Shown: positions 55,010 through 63,994 of the stretch, piece after piece
Numbering within the stretch: position 1 is the first letter of the stretch
Layout: each line of letters begins with the position of its first letter
The notes under the pieces: generated by a model
What the model was told of the DNA's origin: nothing
Seen by the model: the letters and a program-made list of their open reading frames with translations, nothing else
Databases searched by the model: none
Translations under genes and position numbers: made by a program
Assembly: GCF_036322625.1 (NCBI RefSeq)
Contig: NZ_AP027266.1
Span: forward strand, 3,475,001-3,539,000
Origin: Roseicyclus marinus
GTDB lineage: Bacteria; Pseudomonadota; Alphaproteobacteria; Rhodobacterales; Rhodobacteraceae
Length of the DNA: 64,000 nucleotides
Direction: 5' to 3'

Positions 55010-56185
55010 TCACCCTGTCCGGTCCTCGGCGCGGCAGTAGATCGCCAGTCCGATCAGGATCATCACCGCGATGATCGCGAACAGCGTGCCATAGGCCTCC
55101 ACCGGCGGACGGGTTTGGGACAGGGCGGCGAAGGTGGGGCCGGAGGCGAATTGCATCACCCCCGCCCCGCCCATTCCGAACAGGTTCAGAAGCGTCACCC
55201 CCCGTCCCGTCAGATGCGGGGGGCAAAAGCTGCGCCCGTGGCTGATGACGATGGGATAGGAGGCCCCCAGAAGGCCGATGGCCGCGAAAAGCGCGACGGA
55301 GGTCCAAAGCCCGGAGGGGGGCGCGATCCAGAAGGACAGGAGCAGGAGCGCCACCAGCCCGTTGCCGATGAGGATGGGCCGTTTGCGGCCTCCGAAGAGG
55401 CGGTCGGCGGGGCCATAGAGGAAATTGCCCGCCACCATAGCCAAGCCCATCACGAGCGTCGCCATGCCGATCCGTGACAGGTCGGCCCCGAAGATCTCGG
55501 TCACATAGGGGCTGATCCAGAGCCCGCGCAGGCCGGCGGCAGGCGCGTAGCAGACGAACATCATCGCCATAAGCGGCCAGAGCGCGGGCATTTTCACGAG
55601 GTCGAGGAGCGATCCCTTGGCCTCGCCCAAAGGCTTGGGCGGGTCGCGCACGAGCACCGCGATGGCCAGCGCCATGAGCGCGGTGAACCCCGCGAAGGCG
55701 CCCACCGTCTGCCGCCAGCCAAAGAGCTCGATCAGCGCGGCAAGGGGGGCTGCCGACAAGATGTTGCCCAGCGAGGACAGGCCCACCGTCACCCCCGCGA
55801 GCGTGCCGAAGACGGCGGGGGAAAACTGGCGGGCGTAGATGTAATAGGTCGACATCAGGATCGGGGCGCAGCCGATGCCGATGAGGATCATCGCCAGCGT
55901 GATGGCGCCCGGCCCCTCGGCCATGGCAAAGACCGCCGCCCCGCCCGCGCCCCCGACAAGGAACAGGACCGAGGCGGTGCGGCGCGGCCCGATCGTGTCG
56001 AGCGCCCAGCCCACGGGCAATTGCATCAGCGCGAAGGCCGCGAACCACAGCCCCGAGGCCCGCGCCAGATCGCCGGTCGTGGCCCCGATATCGGCCTGAA
56101 GCGCCGGGGCCAGCACCGCGAGAAAGGCGCGGTAGAACTGGCTGAGCGTATAGGCCACGACAAGAAACGCGATCCCGGCGCGCAT
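55010..56185 (-). CDS. MFS transporter
   Basis: A 391-residue, 12-helix permease. ALQADIGATTGDLARASGLW and GWALDTIGPRRT (a motif-A-like loop) are near the N-terminus. The ATG at 56185 is preferred because the upstream frame extends into the regulatory region. Its promoter region is shared with fbpA and contains the CCGATA palindrome (56256-56272). Iron-siderophore or sugar transport is possible, but the substrate is unknown. Confidence 0.85.
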   Translation of the reverse strand: MRAGIAFLVVAYTLSQFYRAFLAVLAPALQADIGATTGDLARASGLWFAAFALMQLPVGWALDTIGPRRTASVLFLVGGAGGAAVFAMAEGPGAITLAMILIGIGCAPILMSTYYIYARQFSPAVFGTLAGVTVGLSSLGNILSAAPLAALIELFGWRQTVGAFAGFTALMALAIAVLVRDPPKPLGEAKGSLLDLVKMPALWPLMAMMFVCYAPAAGLRGLWISPYVTEIFGADLSRIGMATLVMGLAMVAGNFLYGPADRLFGGRKRPILIGNGLVALLLLSFWIAPPSGLWTSVALFAAIGLLGASYPIVISHGRSFCPPHLTGRGVTLLNLFGMGGAGVMQFASGPTFAALSQTRPPVEAYGTLFAIIAVMILIGLAIYCRAEDRTG

Positions 56186-56255
56186 GGTGCCCCCTCTCTC
56201 CCGTGTTGGGAGGGTTCTGCACCGGGGGCGGGGCCGCGACAAGCGGGCGCGGTTT

Positions 56256-56272
56256 CCGATACTTTTTGTCGG
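56256..56272. promoter_or_regulatory. 17-bp palindrome between the MFS gene and fbpA
   Basis: CCGATA-ctttt-TGTCGG, one mismatch from the perfect palindrome CCGACA-ccttt-TGTCGG found upstream of fbpB (60791-60807). It lies 71 bases before the MFS start and 98 bases before fbpA. Shared by two iron-transport promoters. Confidence 0.6.
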
Positions 56273-56320
56273 GAATATTGACATGGGGTCGGAGATGCTG
56301 TTCAAGGGCGGCAACCCAGC

Positions 56321-56335
56321 TGAGTATTTCAGTCA
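56321..56335. promoter_or_regulatory. RirA-type iron box TGA-N9-TCA upstream of fbpA
   Basis: TGAGTATTTCAGTCA has the TGA-N9-TCA spacing of the iron-responsive operator of RirA in alphaproteobacteria. It is 34 bases before the fbpA ATG and directly before a -10-like TATGAT (56340-56345), where a bound repressor would block transcription. Assignment by motif only. Confidence 0.5.
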
Positions 56336-56369
56336 GGTATATGATTTGGACAACAACGGAGCCTCCTCC

Positions 56370-57389
56370 ATGACCCGGACTTTTGCCGCCCTGATGGGCA
56401 CCGCCATCGCGGTCTCGACGCTGACCGCCGCGCAGGCGCAGGAACTGAACCTCTATTCCTCGCGCCATTACGACACGGACGAGCGGCTTTATTCCGATTT
56501 CACCGAATTGACCGGCATCACGATCAACCGGATCGAAGGCAATGCCGACGAGCTGATCGCGCGGATGCAGGCCGAGGGCGAAAACAGCCCCGCCGATGTG
56601 TTTCTGACCGTCGACACCGTGCGGCTGGCCCGCGCGACCGAGATGGGGCTTTTGCAGCCGGTCGAGAGCGAGGTGCTGGAGGCGCGCATCCCCGCCTATC
56701 TGCAAGATGACGCCAACAACTGGTTCGCTTTCTCGCAGCGCGCGCGGATCATCTTTTACGACAAGACCGATGTGGCGAACCCGCCGCAGACCTACCAGGA
56801 CCTGGCGAATCCGGAATACGCGGGGATGGTCTGCATCCGGTCGTCGTCGAACGTCTATACCCAGAACATCACCGCGGCGCTGATCGCGCATCTGGGCGCC
56901 GAGGCGGTCGAGGATTGGGCGACGGCGGTCGTGGGCAATTTCGCCCGCGCGCCCCAGGGCGGCGACACCGACCAGCTGCGCGGCATCGCGTCGGGGGAAT
57001 GCGACATCTCGATGTCCAACACCTATTATTTCTCGCGCATCATCCGGGAAGGCGATGACCAGATCACGCCCGAGCAGCTGGCCAATATCGGCTGGGTGTT
57101 CCCCAACCAGAACGATCTGGGCGCGCATATGAACGTGTCGGGGGGCGGTGTGGCGGCCCATGCGCCGAACCGCGAGAATGCGATCGCTTTCCTTGAATAC
57201 CTCGCCTCCGACCAGGCGCAGCAGTATTTCTCGGCGGGCAACGACGAATACCCCGCCGTGCCGGGTGTGGGCCTGTCGCCGTCGGTTGCGGCGCTGGGGA
57301 TTTTCCGGCCCGACACGATCGATCTGAGCGATATCGCGGCCAATGTCGGGATGGCGGTCGAGGTGCTGAACAGCGCCGGTTGGGAATGA
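56370..57389 (+). CDS. fbpA: Periplasmic ferric-iron-binding protein
   Basis: A 339-residue solute-binding protein with signal peptide (cleavage near AQAQ). ELNLYSSRHYDTDERLYSDF is characteristic of FbpA/FutA-type iron-binding proteins, and SNTYYFSRI carries the paired tyrosines that bind ferric iron. It delivers iron to the permease FbpB. The ATG at 56370 has ACGGAG about nine bases upstream. A RirA-type box and -10-like TATGAT lie just upstream. Confidence 0.93.
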   Translation: MTRTFAALMGTAIAVSTLTAAQAQELNLYSSRHYDTDERLYSDFTELTGITINRIEGNADELIARMQAEGENSPADVFLTVDTVRLARATEMGLLQPVESEVLEARIPAYLQDDANNWFAFSQRARIIFYDKTDVANPPQTYQDLANPEYAGMVCIRSSSNVYTQNITAALIAHLGAEAVEDWATAVVGNFARAPQGGDTDQLRGIASGECDISMSNTYYFSRIIREGDDQITPEQLANIGWVFPNQNDLGAHMNVSGGGVAAHAPNRENAIAFLEYLASDQAQQYFSAGNDEYPAVPGVGLSPSVAALGIFRPDTIDLSDIAANVGMAVEVLNSAGWE

Positions 57390-57536: not shown

Positions 57537-59006
57537 ATGAAATTCTGGACGGCGATTGCCCTGATACTTGTGCTGTCGGCTTTGGGCCTGACCTACGAGA
57601 TCGCGGCGGGCCGCGTGCTGGCCCCGTTTTTCGGCACCTCGCTGGTGACATGGACGGCCGTGATCGCCACGGTTCTGGCGGGCTTTTCGCTGGGCAATGC
57701 GCTGGGGGGCTTCATGGCCGAACGCGAGCGCGCGGTGGCGCTGAGGCAGGTGCGGGCGGTGCTGGTGGGCACGGCGGTGCTGGCCGCGCTGTCGCCCCTG
57801 ATCCTTGGGTTGATCTACAGTCTTGGGGCAAGGGGCACGGGGGGCATGCTGGTGAGCGTGATCGTCGCGTTTTTCCCGGCCTCTGTTCTGATCTCTGCGC
57901 CCTCGCCTTTGTTGGCGCGGCTGGCGGTGGAGGCGCGGCCGGGGCGCGAGGGGTCGTCGCTGGGCATGGTTCTGGCGGCGGGGTCGCTGGGGGCGATCCT
58001 GGGTGCGGTTCTGGCGGGCTTCGTGGCGCTGCCCTTTGCCGGGTCGGTGGCGACCTTCGCGGGGTGTGGGGCTGCGGCGCTCTTGTGCGTGCCGTTCCTG
58101 CGCGACCGGGGACAGGGCGGCGGCGAGGAGGGGGAAAAACCGTCGCTTGCGCCGCTCATCCCCATCGCGGCGCTGGTTCTGGGGAGTGCGGCGCTGGGCC
58201 CTGTCTGTCGCTACGAATCGGGTCTGTCCTGCATCGACATCACGCGGACGGGCGGTGTGATCAGCCTTTATTCCGACCGAACGCATCAGGCGGCGGAACC
58301 CGTCCCGCGGGCCGATGCCCCGGAGGATCTGGTCATTCCCTATACCCGCTGGATCTGGGCGCGGATGGATGCCGATCTGGGGGCTGCGCCATCGGTCCTG
58401 TTCGTAGGGGGCGGGGGCTATACCCTGCCGACACGATTGCTGGAAAGCCGACCCGAGGCGCAGGCCATCGCGGTGGAGATCGACCCGTTGATCACGGAGG
58501 TGGTGCGCCGGCATCTGCCGCGCGCCGCCGCGATGATCGCGGAAACGGGCTATGAGGCCGGGGTCGAGGGGCCGGGCGAGGGGGCCGCCCCCGGACGGTT
58601 GGGGATCGTCCATGCCGATGGGCGGGTCTATCTGAATGAAACGGTCCGCCGTTATGATGCGGCGGTGATGGATGCGTTTTCATCCGCTTCGGTGCCTGCG
58701 CATCTGGTCACGCGCGAGACCTTTGCCCGGTTGCGCGAGATCGTGACGGGACCTGTCTATGTGAACCTGATCGATGCGCCCGATGGGCCACTGGCGCGCG
58801 GCACCCATGCGATCCTGAGCGAGTTATACCCCCATGTCATCGCCGTGCGCGGGCCGGTCGGGCCGACGGGTCTGGGCAATGTGATGCTGGCCGCCTCGCC
58901 CGTGCCGCTGGACGCGTTGGAGGCATTGCCCGAGGGGTACGAGATGGCTGCGATTTCGCCCGCGCGGGCGTTCACGGATGATCGGGGCTGGGTGGGGTAT
59001 CGGTAG
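57537..59006 (+). CDS. Fused membrane / spermidine-synthase-like protein
   Basis: A 489-residue protein: about seven N-terminal membrane helices (TYEIAAGRVLAPFFGTSLVTW motif in helix one; residues 1-220) and a C-terminal spermidine-synthase-like Rossmann domain (PSVLFVGGGGYTLPTRLLES, AVEIDPLITEV, DAFSSASVPAHLVT). Such fusions are membrane-anchored aminopropyltransferase-like enzymes; many lack the residues for spermidine synthesis and the substrate is unknown. It lies between fbpA and fbpB. The TAG stop is inside a palindromic repeat. Confidence 0.86.
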   Translation: MKFWTAIALILVLSALGLTYEIAAGRVLAPFFGTSLVTWTAVIATVLAGFSLGNALGGFMAERERAVALRQVRAVLVGTAVLAALSPLILGLIYSLGARGTGGMLVSVIVAFFPASVLISAPSPLLARLAVEARPGREGSSLGMVLAAGSLGAILGAVLAGFVALPFAGSVATFAGCGAAALLCVPFLRDRGQGGGEEGEKPSLAPLIPIAALVLGSAALGPVCRYESGLSCIDITRTGGVISLYSDRTHQAAEPVPRADAPEDLVIPYTRWIWARMDADLGAAPSVLFVGGGGYTLPTRLLESRPEAQAIAVEIDPLITEVVRRHLPRAAAMIAETGYEAGVEGPGEGAAPGRLGIVHADGRVYLNETVRRYDAAVMDAFSSASVPAHLVTRETFARLREIVTGPVYVNLIDAPDGPLARGTHAILSELYPHVIAVRGPVGPTGLGNVMLAASPVPLDALEALPEGYEMAAISPARAFTDDRGWVGYR

Positions 59007-59077
59007 GGTGGGTGGAACCCACCGGTGCGCGTGAGCTTTGGTGGTTTGGGGTTTGGTGGGCAGATTGCCCACCCTAC
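59003..59077. repeat. REP-like palindrome between convergent genes, copy 2
   Basis: GTAGGGTGGGTGGAACCCACC (from 59003) begins and GGTGGGCAGATTGCCCACC ends the element, closed by CTAC (to 59077). It matches the copy at 37121-37175 in the terminal 23 bases with few changes. It contains the TAG stops of the spermidine-synthase-like gene (59004-59006) and of fbpB (CTA at 59074-59076). Confidence 0.85.
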
Positions 59078-60759
59078 GTCGTGCGTTGAGCCTGAGCCTG
59101 CGCGGCGTCGATGGCGTTGCGCATCGGGCGGCCCTCGCGGCCGATGGACCAGCACAGGATGGCGACGGGGATCAGCCCTACCGCGCCGATGACGAGGCTG
59201 GGCACCGCCGCCTCGGCCAGCCGTTCATCGGAGGCGAGGCGGTGGGCCTGCACCGCCAGCGTGTCGTAGTTGAAGGGCCGCAGGATCAGGGTGGCGGGCA
59301 ATTCCTTCATCACGTCGACGAAGACGATCAGGAGCGCGGTCAGGATCGAGGGTTGCAGGATCGGCACGTGGATGCGGCGCAGCATGGGGGCAGGCCCGTG
59401 GCCCAGCGTGCGGGCCACGGCATCCATGTTGGGGTTCACGGTCGCCAGCCCCGATTCGTAGGTGTTCAGCGCCACGGCCATGAAGCGGACCATGTAGGCC
59501 ATGATCATCAGCCAGATGGAGCCGGTGATCAAAAGCCCGGTGTCGATGCCGAAATTCGCCTCCATGAACCGGTCGAGCGCATTGTCGAAGGCGGCGAAGG
59601 GAAACAGAAGCCCCACCGCGATCACGCCGCCCGGCACGGCATAGCCAATGCCCGCGATGCGGAGCGCGGATTGGGAGGTCTTGGTCGGATGGAGCCGCGC
59701 GTTGAACCCCAGCGTGATGGCGGCGGCCACCGTCAATAGGGCGGCCATGGAAGCCAGCGTCAGCGAATGCTGCAAGAAGCCGAGGTAGCGGGGGGTGAAC
59801 AAGAGCTGGCTCGCCCCGGAGGCGAGGGTGAGCAAGATGCCGGTGGGCAGGAGAAAGCCGAAAAACACGGGCAGGCCGCAGATGGCGATGGCCCCCAAGG
59901 CGGCACGGCCGCGCAGCTGCACAGGCTCCATCCGTTCGAAGCGGCGGCCGGCGTCGTGGTGGCGCAGGTGGCGGCGCTGGCGGCGTTCGAGCGTGGCGAA
60001 GGTGAGCGCCACGACGAGAAGGCAGAGCGCCAGTTGCGCCGCCGCCCCCCGGTCGAAGAGGCCGAACCAGCTGACATAGATGCCGGTGGCAAAGGTCTGA
60101 ACGCCGAAATAGGCGACGGTCCCGTAATCGGCGAGCGTTTCCATCAGCGCGAGCAGCACGCCGCCCGCGATGGCGGGGCGTGCCACGGGGACAGAGACGC
60201 GGAAAAACGCGCCCCATGGCCCCTGACCCAGCGTGCGCGCGGCGATATAGGCCGTTGCCGATTGCCGCAGGAAAGCCGCCCGCGCGAGCAGGTAGACGTA
60301 AGGATAGAGGACGAGGATCAGCATCGCCGCCGCGCCGCCCAGGCTTCGGATTTCGGGGAACCAATAGTCGCGCGGCCCCCAGCCGGTCAGATCGCGCAGC
60401 GTCGATTGCACCCAGCCGGGATGGTCGAGCAGATCGGTATAGGCATAGGCCAGCACATAGGCCGGAAAGGTCAGCGGCAGGGCCAGCGCGATTTCAAAGA
60501 GCCGCCGCCCCGGAAAGCGGGTGGCGGTGACAAGCCATGCGGTCGAGGTGCCGATGAGTGCCGTGCCGATGCCCACGATCACCACCAGCAGCGCCGTGGT
60601 GCCCGCGTAGCGCGGCAGGACCGATCCGGCGAGGCCCGACAGCGTGCCGATGCCGCCGGTCAGGGCGGCGATGGCCACGGCGGCCATCGGCAGGATGCAG
60701 ATCGCGGCGGCCCCCCATGCAAGGGCGGACAGGCGGTGGATGCGGGCGCTTTGGGCCAT
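59074..60759 (-). CDS. fbpB: Ferric-iron ABC transporter permease (fused two-domain)
   Basis: A 561-residue inner membrane permease with two tandem BPD-type domains and about twelve helices, typical of FbpB/FutB/SfuB. The EAA-like loops are AYIAARTLGQGPWGAFFRVS (first half) and AVARTLGHGPAPMLRRIHVP (second half). The ATG at 60759 has no strong ribosome site. A 17-bp palindrome lies 32 bases upstream. The ATPase FbpC is not encoded nearby, so the transporter must borrow or encode it elsewhere. Confidence 0.9.
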   Translation of the reverse strand: MAQSARIHRLSALAWGAAAICILPMAAVAIAALTGGIGTLSGLAGSVLPRYAGTTALLVVIVGIGTALIGTSTAWLVTATRFPGRRLFEIALALPLTFPAYVLAYAYTDLLDHPGWVQSTLRDLTGWGPRDYWFPEIRSLGGAAAMLILVLYPYVYLLARAAFLRQSATAYIAARTLGQGPWGAFFRVSVPVARPAIAGGVLLALMETLADYGTVAYFGVQTFATGIYVSWFGLFDRGAAAQLALCLLVVALTFATLERRQRRHLRHHDAGRRFERMEPVQLRGRAALGAIAICGLPVFFGFLLPTGILLTLASGASQLLFTPRYLGFLQHSLTLASMAALLTVAAAITLGFNARLHPTKTSQSALRIAGIGYAVPGGVIAVGLLFPFAAFDNALDRFMEANFGIDTGLLITGSIWLMIMAYMVRFMAVALNTYESGLATVNPNMDAVARTLGHGPAPMLRRIHVPILQPSILTALLIVFVDVMKELPATLILRPFNYDTLAVQAHRLASDERLAEAAVPSLVIGAVGLIPVAILCWSIGREGRPMRNAIDAAQAQAQRTT

Positions 60760-60790
60760 GGGCGGGAATGCTTTCGGGCGGTCCTTCAAT

Positions 60791-60807
60791 CCGACACCTT
60801 TTGTCGG
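60791..60807. promoter_or_regulatory. 17-bp perfect palindrome upstream of fbpB
   Basis: CCGACA-ccttt-TGTCGG with perfect 6-bp arms, 32 bases before the fbpB ATG and 97 bases before the divergent arsR-arsC fusion. The sister site is at 56256-56272, between the MFS gene and fbpA. Confidence 0.6.
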
Positions 60808-60903
60808 GATTTGCCGTGAATGCAAGCGACCGGGGCGAAAGCGGGCGGCTCTGTCGCAAAAGCTTCACTTGAGCGCGGTGCATTATTCGGTACTTCGAGA
60901 AAT

Positions 60904-61743
60904 ATGGAAATAACACTCACAGATCGATTCGCCGCCCTCAGCCATCCGGCCCGTCTGGATGTCGTGCAATTGCTCATCCGCCGCTACCCCGACCGGGTTC
61001 CGGCGGGCGAGATCGCCGAGGTTCTGGGGCTGAAGCCCAATACGCTGAGCGCCTACCTGGCCGATCTGATGCAGGCCGGGCTGATCACGCGCGACCGGCT
61101 TGGCACATCGCTGCGTTACGGGGCCGACATGGCTGGCCTCAGCGCGATGACCGACGGCCTGTTGCGCGAGTGTTGCAGAGGGCGTGCAGACCTGTGCGCG
61201 GCCCTACCCCTCGATGCCCCTGACGGAGACCGCATCATGCCCCATGACCGCTACAAGGTCCTGTTCATCTGCACCGGCAATTCGGCCCGGTCGATCTTTG
61301 CCGAGACGCTGTTGCGCGAGATGGCGGGCGACCGGTTCGAGGTGTTTTCCGCCGGAACCCAGCCGCAATCGGCGCTGAACCCGATGGCGGTGGAGATGCT
61401 GCGGCTGAAGGGGCACGAGACCTCGGGCCTGCGGTCCAAGAACCTGTCCGAGTTCCAGGGCGTGGGCGCGCCGGTGTTCGATTTCGTCTTTACCGTCTGC
61501 GACCGCGCCGCGAACGAGGCCTGCCCGCCCTGGCCCGGTCAGCCGATGTCGGCGCATTGGTCGACGCCCGACCCGGTGAAGGCGCAAGGCACCGAGGCGG
61601 AGCGGATGCTGGCCTTTCAAAGCGCCTACGGGATGCTGCGCAACCGCATCCTCGCCTTTACCGCGCTGCCGCTGGGCACGCTGGACCGGATCTCGCTGCA
61701 ACGCGCGCTGGACGGGATCGCGGGCGCGGAGGGCGCGGCATGA
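60904..61743 (+). CDS. ArsR-ArsC fusion: arsenic repressor plus arsenate reductase
   Basis: A 279-residue fusion. Residues 1-100 are a winged-helix ArsR domain ([36 protein letters not shown]) with Cys90, Cys91 and Cys98 that may bind arsenite, an arrangement like the atypical C-terminal site of Acidithiobacillus ArsR. Residues 115-279 are a low-molecular-weight-phosphatase-type ArsC: CTGNSAR (Cys123-Arg129, CX5R). It would reduce arsenate and control the operon. The ATG at 60904 lies next to AT-rich DNA; the stop overlaps the next start (ATGA). Confidence 0.9.
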
Positions 61744-62738
61744 CCACCTATGCGCTGAACGGGTTGGGCCGGATCGGAAAGCTGGCCCTGCGGCCGCTGC
61801 TGGAGCGGGGGGCGAAGATCGCCTGGATCAACGACGCGGTGGGCGATCCGGCGATGCATGCGCATCTGTTGGAATTCGACACGGTGCATGGGCGGTGGCG
61901 GGCGGATATTTCGGCCGATGACGACGCCATCACCATCGACGGTGTGCGCCTGCCGGTGTTGTGCGAACGCGACCCGGCCAAGCTGCCGCTGGACGGCGTG
62001 GACGTCGTGATCGACTGCACGGGCGTGTTCAAGACGGCGGCGAAGATCCAGCCCTATTTCGACGCGGGCGTGAAGCGCGTGGTCGTCAGCGCCCCGGTCA
62101 AGGACGGGGGGGCGGCCAATATCGTCTATGGCGTGAACCACGACATCTATGACCCGAGCCAGCATCGGATCGTGACGGCGGCAAGCTGCACGACCAATTG
62201 CCTGGCCCCGGTGGTCAAGGTCATCCACGAGGCGCTGGGGATCAAGCATGGCTCGATCACCACGATCCATGACGTGACGAATACGCAGACCATCGTGGAC
62301 CGCCCGGCCAAGGATCTGCGCCGCGCAAGGTCGGCGTTGAACAGCCTGATCCCCACCACCACGGGCAGCGCCACGGCGATCACGCTGATCTACCCCGAGC
62401 TCAAAGGAAAGCTGAACGGTCATGCCGTGCGGGTGCCGCTGCTCAATGCCTCGATCACCGATTGCGTCTTCGAGGTGGAGCGCGCGACGACGGCGGAGGA
62501 GGTCAACGCGCTGTTCAAGGCGGCGGCGGAGGGTCCGCTGGCCGGTATCCTCGGCTACGAGGAGCGGCCGCTGGTCAGTGCCGATTACACCAATGACACG
62601 CGGTCGGGCATCGTGGATGCGCCGAGCACGATGGTGGTGAACGGGACGCAGGTGAAGATCTACGCCTGGTATGACAACGAGATGGGCTATGCCCATCGGC
62701 TGGTCGATGTCGCCCTGATGGTGGGTGCGGCCCCGTGA
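61740..62738 (+). CDS. Glyceraldehyde-3-phosphate dehydrogenase of the arsenate operon
   Basis: A 332-residue type [18 protein letters not shown] (NAD loop), the catalytic Cys150 in SCTTNC, and [13 protein letters not shown] are present. In ars operons GAPDH uses arsenate in place of phosphate to form 1-arseno-3-phosphoglycerate, which ArsJ exports. It overlaps the ArsR-ArsC gene by four bases and arsJ by four bases (GTGA), giving coupled translation. A role in central glycolysis is less likely because of this setting. Confidence 0.93.
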
Positions 62739-63994
62739 CCGACACCGCGCGCCCGCAAGGTTTCGCCGCCTATGTGGCGGTGACGGCGGCCTATTGGGCC
62801 TTCATGCTGACCGATGGCGCGCTCAGGATGCTGGTCTTGCTGCATTTCCATACGCTGGGCTTTTCCCCGGTGCAGCTGGCCTACCTGTTTCTTCTATATG
62901 AATTGGCGGGGATCGTGACGAACCTGTCGGCGGGCTGGATCGCGGCGCGGTTCGGGCTGACCACGACGCTTTATGCGGGGCTGGGGGTGCAGATCGTGGC
63001 GCTGATCGCGCTGGCGCAGCTGGACCCCGGCTGGGGCATCGCCGCCTCGGTCGCCTTTGTCATGGTCGTGCAGGGGTTGTCGGGCGTGGCCAAGGACCTG
63101 GCCAAGATGTCGTCGAAATCGGCGGTCAAGCTCTTGGCGCCTGCGCAGGGCGGGGCGCTGTTTCGCTGGGTTGCGGTGCTGACCGGGTCCAAGAACGCGG
63201 TGAAGGGGTTGGGCTTCCTCCTCGGGGCGGCGATGCTCGCCCTCGTCGGCTTTGTCGGATCGGTTCTGGCGATGGCGGCGGTTCTGGCGTTGATCCTGAT
63301 CGTGATCGCATGGCGGATGCCGCCGGGCCTGCCCATGGGGCGCAAGGGCGCGAAATTCACCGAGGTCTTTTCCAAATCCGCCAATGTGAACTGGCTGTCG
63401 GCGGCGCGCGTGTTCCTGTTCGGGGCGCGGGATGTCTGGTTCGTCGTCGGCATCCCGATCTATTTCTACGCGGTCCTGTCGGATGGCACGGTGGCGGGCA
63501 ACCGCGCGGCCTTTTTCATGATCGGGAGTTTCATGGCCTTCTGGATCATCCTGTATGGCGCGGTCCAGGCCTCGGCCCCGCGCATCCTGCGCGCCGAGAC
63601 GCGGGGCGATGCGGCACTGATCGGGCAGGCCTGGATCTGGGCCGGGGGGTTGGCCTTTCTGCCCGCGGCGCTGGCGCTGTTGGTCTGGGGGGCGGGGGCG
63701 CCCGCGCCATGGCTGACGGCGGTTGTGGTCGGGGGTCTATTGGTCTTTGGCGCGGTTTTCGCGGTGAATTCGGCGCTGCATTCCTACCTGATCCTGGCCT
63801 TCACCAAGGCGGAACGGGTCACGATGGATGTGGGGTTCTACTACATGGCCAATGCGGCGGGGCGGCTGATCGGGACGCTGTTGTCGGGCCTGTCCTACCA
63901 GCTGGGGGGCCTGCCCGCCTGTCTTGGCACGGCGGCCGTGATGCTGGGTTTGAGCGCGCTGGCCGCCCGCAATCTTGATGCGCGCGCGCGTTAA
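62735..63994 (+). CDS. arsJ: Organoarsenical efflux permease ArsJ
   Basis: A 419-residue MFS permease that exports 1-arseno-3-phosphoglycerate. [20 protein letters not shown] near the N-terminus and [20 protein letters not shown] in the middle are the ArsJ hallmarks; about twelve helices. GTG start overlapping the GAPDH stop. With the upstream GAPDH and ArsR-ArsC fusion it gives a complete arsenate resistance system without ArsB or ACR3. Confidence 0.93.

Follow-up and report, generated by a model that had tools for sequence, protein, structure and literature searches.

The question raised by this Roseicyclus marinus locus is which protein, if any, acts on the palindromes that precede its iron importer genes. 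Within the window, that is, the whole stretch of 64,000 nucleotides that was analyzed, the product of fbpA (56370..57389, plus strand) is the ferric-iron-binding component, of FutA type, of an ABC importer, recognized by its SBP families and by a match to the solved structure 2pt1, 'Iron transport protein' (E 5.5e-99). The importer's permease, a fused ABC protein, is the product of fbpB (59074..60759, minus strand; BPD_transp_1), and a gene for an MFS permease (55010..56185, minus strand; PF07690) diverges from fbpA. Between fbpA and fbpB lies a gene for a fused MFS/spermidine-synthase-like protein (57537-59006, plus strand), for which no homologue was found at E 1e-20 in the 80 loci described below. 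An arsenic cassette, at window positions 60904-63994, diverges from fbpB; it encodes an ArsR-ArsC fusion, an ArsJ-associated GAPDH and an ArsJ exporter.

Three palindromes upstream of the importer genes

A first-pass annotation had reported two palindromes of the form CCGACA-N5-TGTCGG in this region. Both are present, at 60791-60807 (CCGACACCTTTTGTCGG, no mismatch) and at 56256-56272 (CCGATACTTTTTGTCGG, one mismatch), and their placement upstream of fbpA, of the divergent MFS gene and of fbpB was confirmed by the distances to the start codons. The perfect copy is found 32 bp upstream of the fbpB ATG (60759, minus strand). The near copy, designated box 1, occupies the divergent gap between the MFS gene and fbpA, 71 bp from the MFS ATG (56185, minus strand) and 98 bp from the fbpA ATG (56370, plus strand), and may serve both genes. 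Although both sites are real, a third had been overlooked: box 2 of fbpA, with its core CTGAGTATTTCAGTCAG at 56320-56336, is located 64 bp from box 1 and is also matched by our covariance model.

A TTGACA hexamer (56278..56283, plus strand), which begins five bases past the end of box 1, lies between the two boxes and is the probable -35 element of fbpA; a full sigma-70 consensus promoter was searched for at fbpA and none was found. If TTGACA is indeed the -35 element, box 2 would be placed just after the start of the fbpA transcript.

Derivation of the motif

For eighty loci that encode an FbpA ortholog, the 250 bp upstream of fbpA were subjected to an iterative motif search. The motif learned is symmetric and 21 bp long, with TTCYGAY, an A/T-rich middle and the mirror RTCRGAA. 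The alignment on which it is built (A1) holds 56 of 81 sites, picked by hand, with duplicates and most weak sites left out. A held-out version was trained on half of the Rhodobacterales loci, the window being left out. Ten of the 80 loci were non-Rhodobacterales (Roseibium/Labrenzia, Oceaniradius, Phyllobacteriaceae and Granulosicoccaceae, of which Roseibium and Oceaniradius were checked); locus L048 was classed with them because its site is identical to a Labrenzia site, and L016 and L075 were classed as Rhodobacterales.

The full motif places the three putative IscR boxes, none of which is assigned to a strand, as the top three sites of the window: box 1 (56254..56274, TTCCGATACTTTTTGTCGGGA) scores 26.3, the fbpB box (60789..60809) 17.4 and box 2 (56318..56338, AGCTGAGTATTTCAGTCAGGT) 17.1, the next site having a score of 7.3. 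With the half-trained motif the values were 25.7, 18.0 and 17.8, respectively, and nothing else in the window exceeded 7.9. The copy with the mismatch outranks the other two boxes, and the 'perfect' palindrome of fbpB is a weaker site.

The proposal that CCGACA-N5-TGTCGG is itself the recognition motif was wrong, since neither its fixed A/T at the sixth position nor its free N5 agrees with the conserved pattern. A genome scan with this pattern, at most one mismatch being allowed, returned 9 places, compared to 16 for a reversed-pattern control; the seven one-mismatch copies outside the window look random, with real-motif scores of -17.6 to 2.5, and the iron genes described below were reached only by the corrected motif. 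Inside the window the pattern matches twice at up to one mismatch (0.33 expected), a number attained in 7 of 100 shuffles of the window. By itself, the pattern is only suggestive evidence for the sites. The palindromes are considered real because they are conserved across loci, and the weight of the evidence does not come from the pattern.

Conservation across Rhodobacterales

In the held-out test at fbpA, with a score of 14, a site was found in all 35 Rhodobacterales loci, in none of the 35 coding controls or of the 10 non-Rhodobacterales loci, and in 6 of 700 shuffled sequences, the division between Rhodobacterales and non-Rhodobacterales having been made after the first motif scores were known. 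In-sample and at a score of at least 12, 70 of 71 Rhodobacterales sequences carry the motif upstream of fbpA, as do 2 of 10 non-Rhodobacterales, and two boxes are present in 58 of 71 and 0 of 10, respectively. A homologue of fbpB was encountered near fbpA in 52 of the 80 loci. At the fbpB promoters, which were outside the training, a score of at least 10 was obtained for 32 of 44 Rhodobacterales (the other 12 scoring below 10) and for none of the 44 coding controls or the 8 non-Rhodobacterales. The survey of MFS and fbpB neighbours used a slightly different score background; the counts reported are from the common background. The motif was absent from the Hyphomicrobiales fbpA and fbpB promoters examined.

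The MFS gene has a homologue in 20 of the 80 loci; in 19 of them, all close relatives, it adjoins fbpA, and in the twentieth (L058) it is situated elsewhere in the locus. When the 19 related MFS-fbpA gaps were aligned with that of the window, box 1 was kept throughout and box 2 in most, TTGAC followed just after box 1 in all 20 gaps, and the 64-bp spacing between the boxes was kept in 15 other loci.

A chance origin of the two palindromes, or a functionless repeat, is a reading to which the shuffled windows lend something. It is refuted by the conservation of position and sequence across Rhodobacterales, together with the absence of the boxes from coding controls and non-Rhodobacterales, and we give it practically no weight.

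Other iron genes with the box

As a genome scan, covariance model R1 returned scores for only 150 of 328 first-look candidates and overlooked the bfd-bfr and fbpB sites; because of these misses two degenerate patterns were used, which matched at 40 distinct places across the 3.55-Mb genome, a list that is not exhaustive. Ranked by the 17-bp core, these 40 places are headed by bfd-bfr (22.5), fbpA box 1 (20.7), hemP (20.6) and fbpA box 2 (20.3), and the next has 15.4. The fbpB box comes eighth (13.4) and, taken alone, does not rise above the genome background. In a simulated sequence of genome size, 4 sites reached a score of at least 17 and 2 a score of at least 22, so that the score alone is no proof of a site; the company of iron genes is.

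Such company is provided by hemP, which matches PF10636 and lies 132 bp downstream of its site, and by the Bfd, Bfr and CDGSH proteins (Pfam matches) that adjoin the bfd-bfr site. Among hemP promoters the motif was found in 15 of 28 loci, compared to 0 of 28 downstream controls; at the 13 loci that scored below 14, another gene of the operon may precede hemP. Within the genus of the window, 11 of 11 hemP-bearing genomes have the motif at hemP. The earlier idea of one common regulator of iron genes is upheld by the conservation at fbpA and fbpB and by the company of hemP and bfd-bfr.

Several other candidates were discarded. The next-ranking genomic sites, 252469, 2313709, 514983, 3427746 and 3058351, fall inside long open frames and were set aside as chance matches, as was the site at 230, which seems to be inside the gene at the start of the genome, putatively dnaA. 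A search of 149 family genomes with the exact pattern CCGACANNNNTTGTCGG gave matches in only 16 of them, and the pattern was judged too narrow.

The distribution of the boxes also bears on the possibility that a local, uncharacterized regulator binds the palindrome, for instance the ArsR-type domain encoded at 60904. The gene for the ArsR-ArsC fusion is divergent from fbpB and begins 97 bp past the fbpB box, which would suit such a role. A homologue of it was detected in just 8 of the 80 loci, however, while boxes occur in Rhodobacterales loci that do not have the gene and also at hemP and bfd-bfr, far from it, and we regard a local regulator as most improbable.

IscR as the probable regulator

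The genome encodes one full-length Rrf2 protein, of 153 aa, with a single cysteine at position 140 within PCPAV. It scores 144 bits against the NCBIfam IscR model (curated cut-off 207) and 38.5 against RirA. A cysteine desulfurase gene comes next after iscR, and the isc operon headed by iscR was judged from these two genes. No RirA was found in the genome, whose sole full Rrf2 protein matches IscR far better.

The motif is not a new one. The Iron-Rhodo-box was reportedly predicted by Rodionov et al. 2006. Our motif fits this known box of Rhodobacteraceae, which is bound by IscR (PMC4618611, PMC6956336). In PMC4618611 (Remes et al. 2015), the single-Cys IscR of R. sphaeroides represses genes preceded by a 19-bp Iron-Rhodo-box; gel shifts with IscR are given for iscR and hemP, and expression of afuA, bfd, bfr and hemP is higher in an iscR mutant. 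The 2019 paper (PMC6956336) prints one IscR box, GACTATTTCTGTCGG; in a gel shift, IscR bound the fragment that contains it. Compared by eye with this single printed site, box 1 agrees at 11 of 15 letters, the fbpB box at 11 of 15, and a site internal to the iscS of this genome at 14 of 15. The likeness to the R. sphaeroides system includes a palindrome of about 19 to 21 bp, the ferric binding protein, hemP and bfd-bfr as targets, a single-Cys PCPAV IscR, and sequence agreement with one site printed in the text (PMC4618611, PMC6956336). The fbpA, fbpB, hemP and bfd-bfr promoters carry the box.

Two other families of sites were considered. The Iron-Rhodo-box is called similar to the RirA box of Rhizobiales in a passage of PMC4618611, but the present genome, unlike the RirA system, is without RirA. 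The Type 1 and Type 2 boxes of Escherichia coli and Caulobacter are likewise bound by IscR family proteins; the Type 2 sequences printed in PMC11475020 look to be of another make.

Another iron regulator that shares targets with IscR, a Fur/Mur or Irr protein, might bind the boxes in its place. Two Fur-family proteins are encoded in the genome, and some of the genes concerned are reported to be influenced by Irr and Fur/Mur in R. sphaeroides (PMC6956336). Against this, the box matches the published IscR site and not the Irr site printed in the same paper, TTAGAAATATTCTAGA (the only Irr site compared), and the content of the regulon is that of the IscR/Iron-Rhodo-box list of PMC4618611, as far as the list is given there. 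We consider such a substitution unlikely; the Fur-family proteins may be co-regulators.

We conclude that the palindromes are very probably Iron-Rhodo-box operators, bound by IscR, that control the iron importer, binding and repression being taken by analogy from the R. sphaeroides papers; what we infer for this locus is that IscR binds the three boxes, where the promoters lie and that the MFS gene is under the same control. With iron and clusters in good supply, IscR would carry an Fe-S cluster and bind the 21-bp boxes. In this form it would repress fbpA and fbpB, and the MFS gene that diverges from fbpA is probably repressed as well. At fbpA, box 1 would act from just upstream of TTGACA and box 2 from 64 bp further on, about at the transcript start. 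Loss of the cluster under shortage of iron or Fe-S would relieve repression, and apo-IscR could possibly activate.

The iscR promoter and the site within iscS

A genome of the family, G051, carries the exact GACTATTTCTGTCGG inside its cysteine desulfurase gene, together with the Irr site of the same paper and an IscR with Cys142. The two exact published sites and Cys142 suggest that it is R. sphaeroides or a near twin. At the promoters that were gel-shifted with R. sphaeroides IscR, this genome has the exact P3 site and motif scores of 16.7 (iscR) and a weak 10.8 (hemP). The iscR promoters of other family members do have a box as well, for example L188 (17.4) and L196 (15.4). In the genus of the window (L169-L181), no box was found at the iscR promoter, the best score being at most 0.8 in 13 of 13 loci and -1.3 in the genome itself; the scan covered 30 loci, with no start for L194 and L195. 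A box at the iscR promoter is a trait of the R. sphaeroides regulon, not of the box as such. In its cysteine desulfurase gene the genome contains GACTATTTTTGTCGG (C1:1616359-1616375; L110 2761-2777), which is half-conserved and stands in the same place as P3, the published internal promoter of R. sphaeroides. A crude search found the iscS-internal site in 5 of 30 loci and failed on the rest.

Paired boxes around a probable -35 element

The arrangement seen at fbpA recurs at other promoters. At hemP, 11 of 11 hemP-bearing genomes of the genus have two boxes 28 to 29 bp apart with TTGAC between them, 19 to 20 bases from the start of the first box; in the genome itself (L148; C1:2351178-2351223) the boxes are 29 bp apart and bracket TTGACA. 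Of five additional loci shown, L161 and L166 share the layout of the genus and L143 and G051 have TTTACA instead, whereas L160 departs from the layout. The bfd site (21.9) is preceded, at a distance of 28 bp, by a second site (13.1), and TTGAC again lies between the two. The spacing of the fbpA pair is 64 bp in this clade; in other Rhodobacterales it is mostly 44 to 50 bp, commonly about 48 bp. In the 61-64-bp group, all 17 loci have a TTGAC or TTGAT that starts 22 to 24 bases after the first fbpA box, compared to about 13 of 32 in the 44-50-bp group.

Relative to the R. sphaeroides system, fbpB here has its own box, and two boxes bracket the predicted -35 at fbpA, hemP and bfd. No description of paired boxes was found in the literature searched, which did not include Rodionov et al. 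2006. It is conceivable, though we hold it only tentatively, that this lineage uses paired IscR boxes bracketing the -35, where two dimers would clamp the promoter and the inner box would tune repression, and that iscR autoregulation was lost in this genus while the iscS-internal box was kept, the Fe-S and iron-import operons being uncoupled.

Implications for iron control in the genus

The general picture of iron control is unchanged by these results: the regulator and the motif are already known, and the boxes of the iron importer are ordinary in kind. Less expected are the box pairs at fbpA, hemP and bfd, and the boxless iscR promoter in the genus. The motif has been corrected, and the regular layout of paired boxes could account for repression and activation by a single protein. 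For a genus so far unstudied, the analysis yields a testable IscR regulon that would consist of fbpA, fbpB, the MFS gene, hemP, bfd-bfr and possibly iscS.
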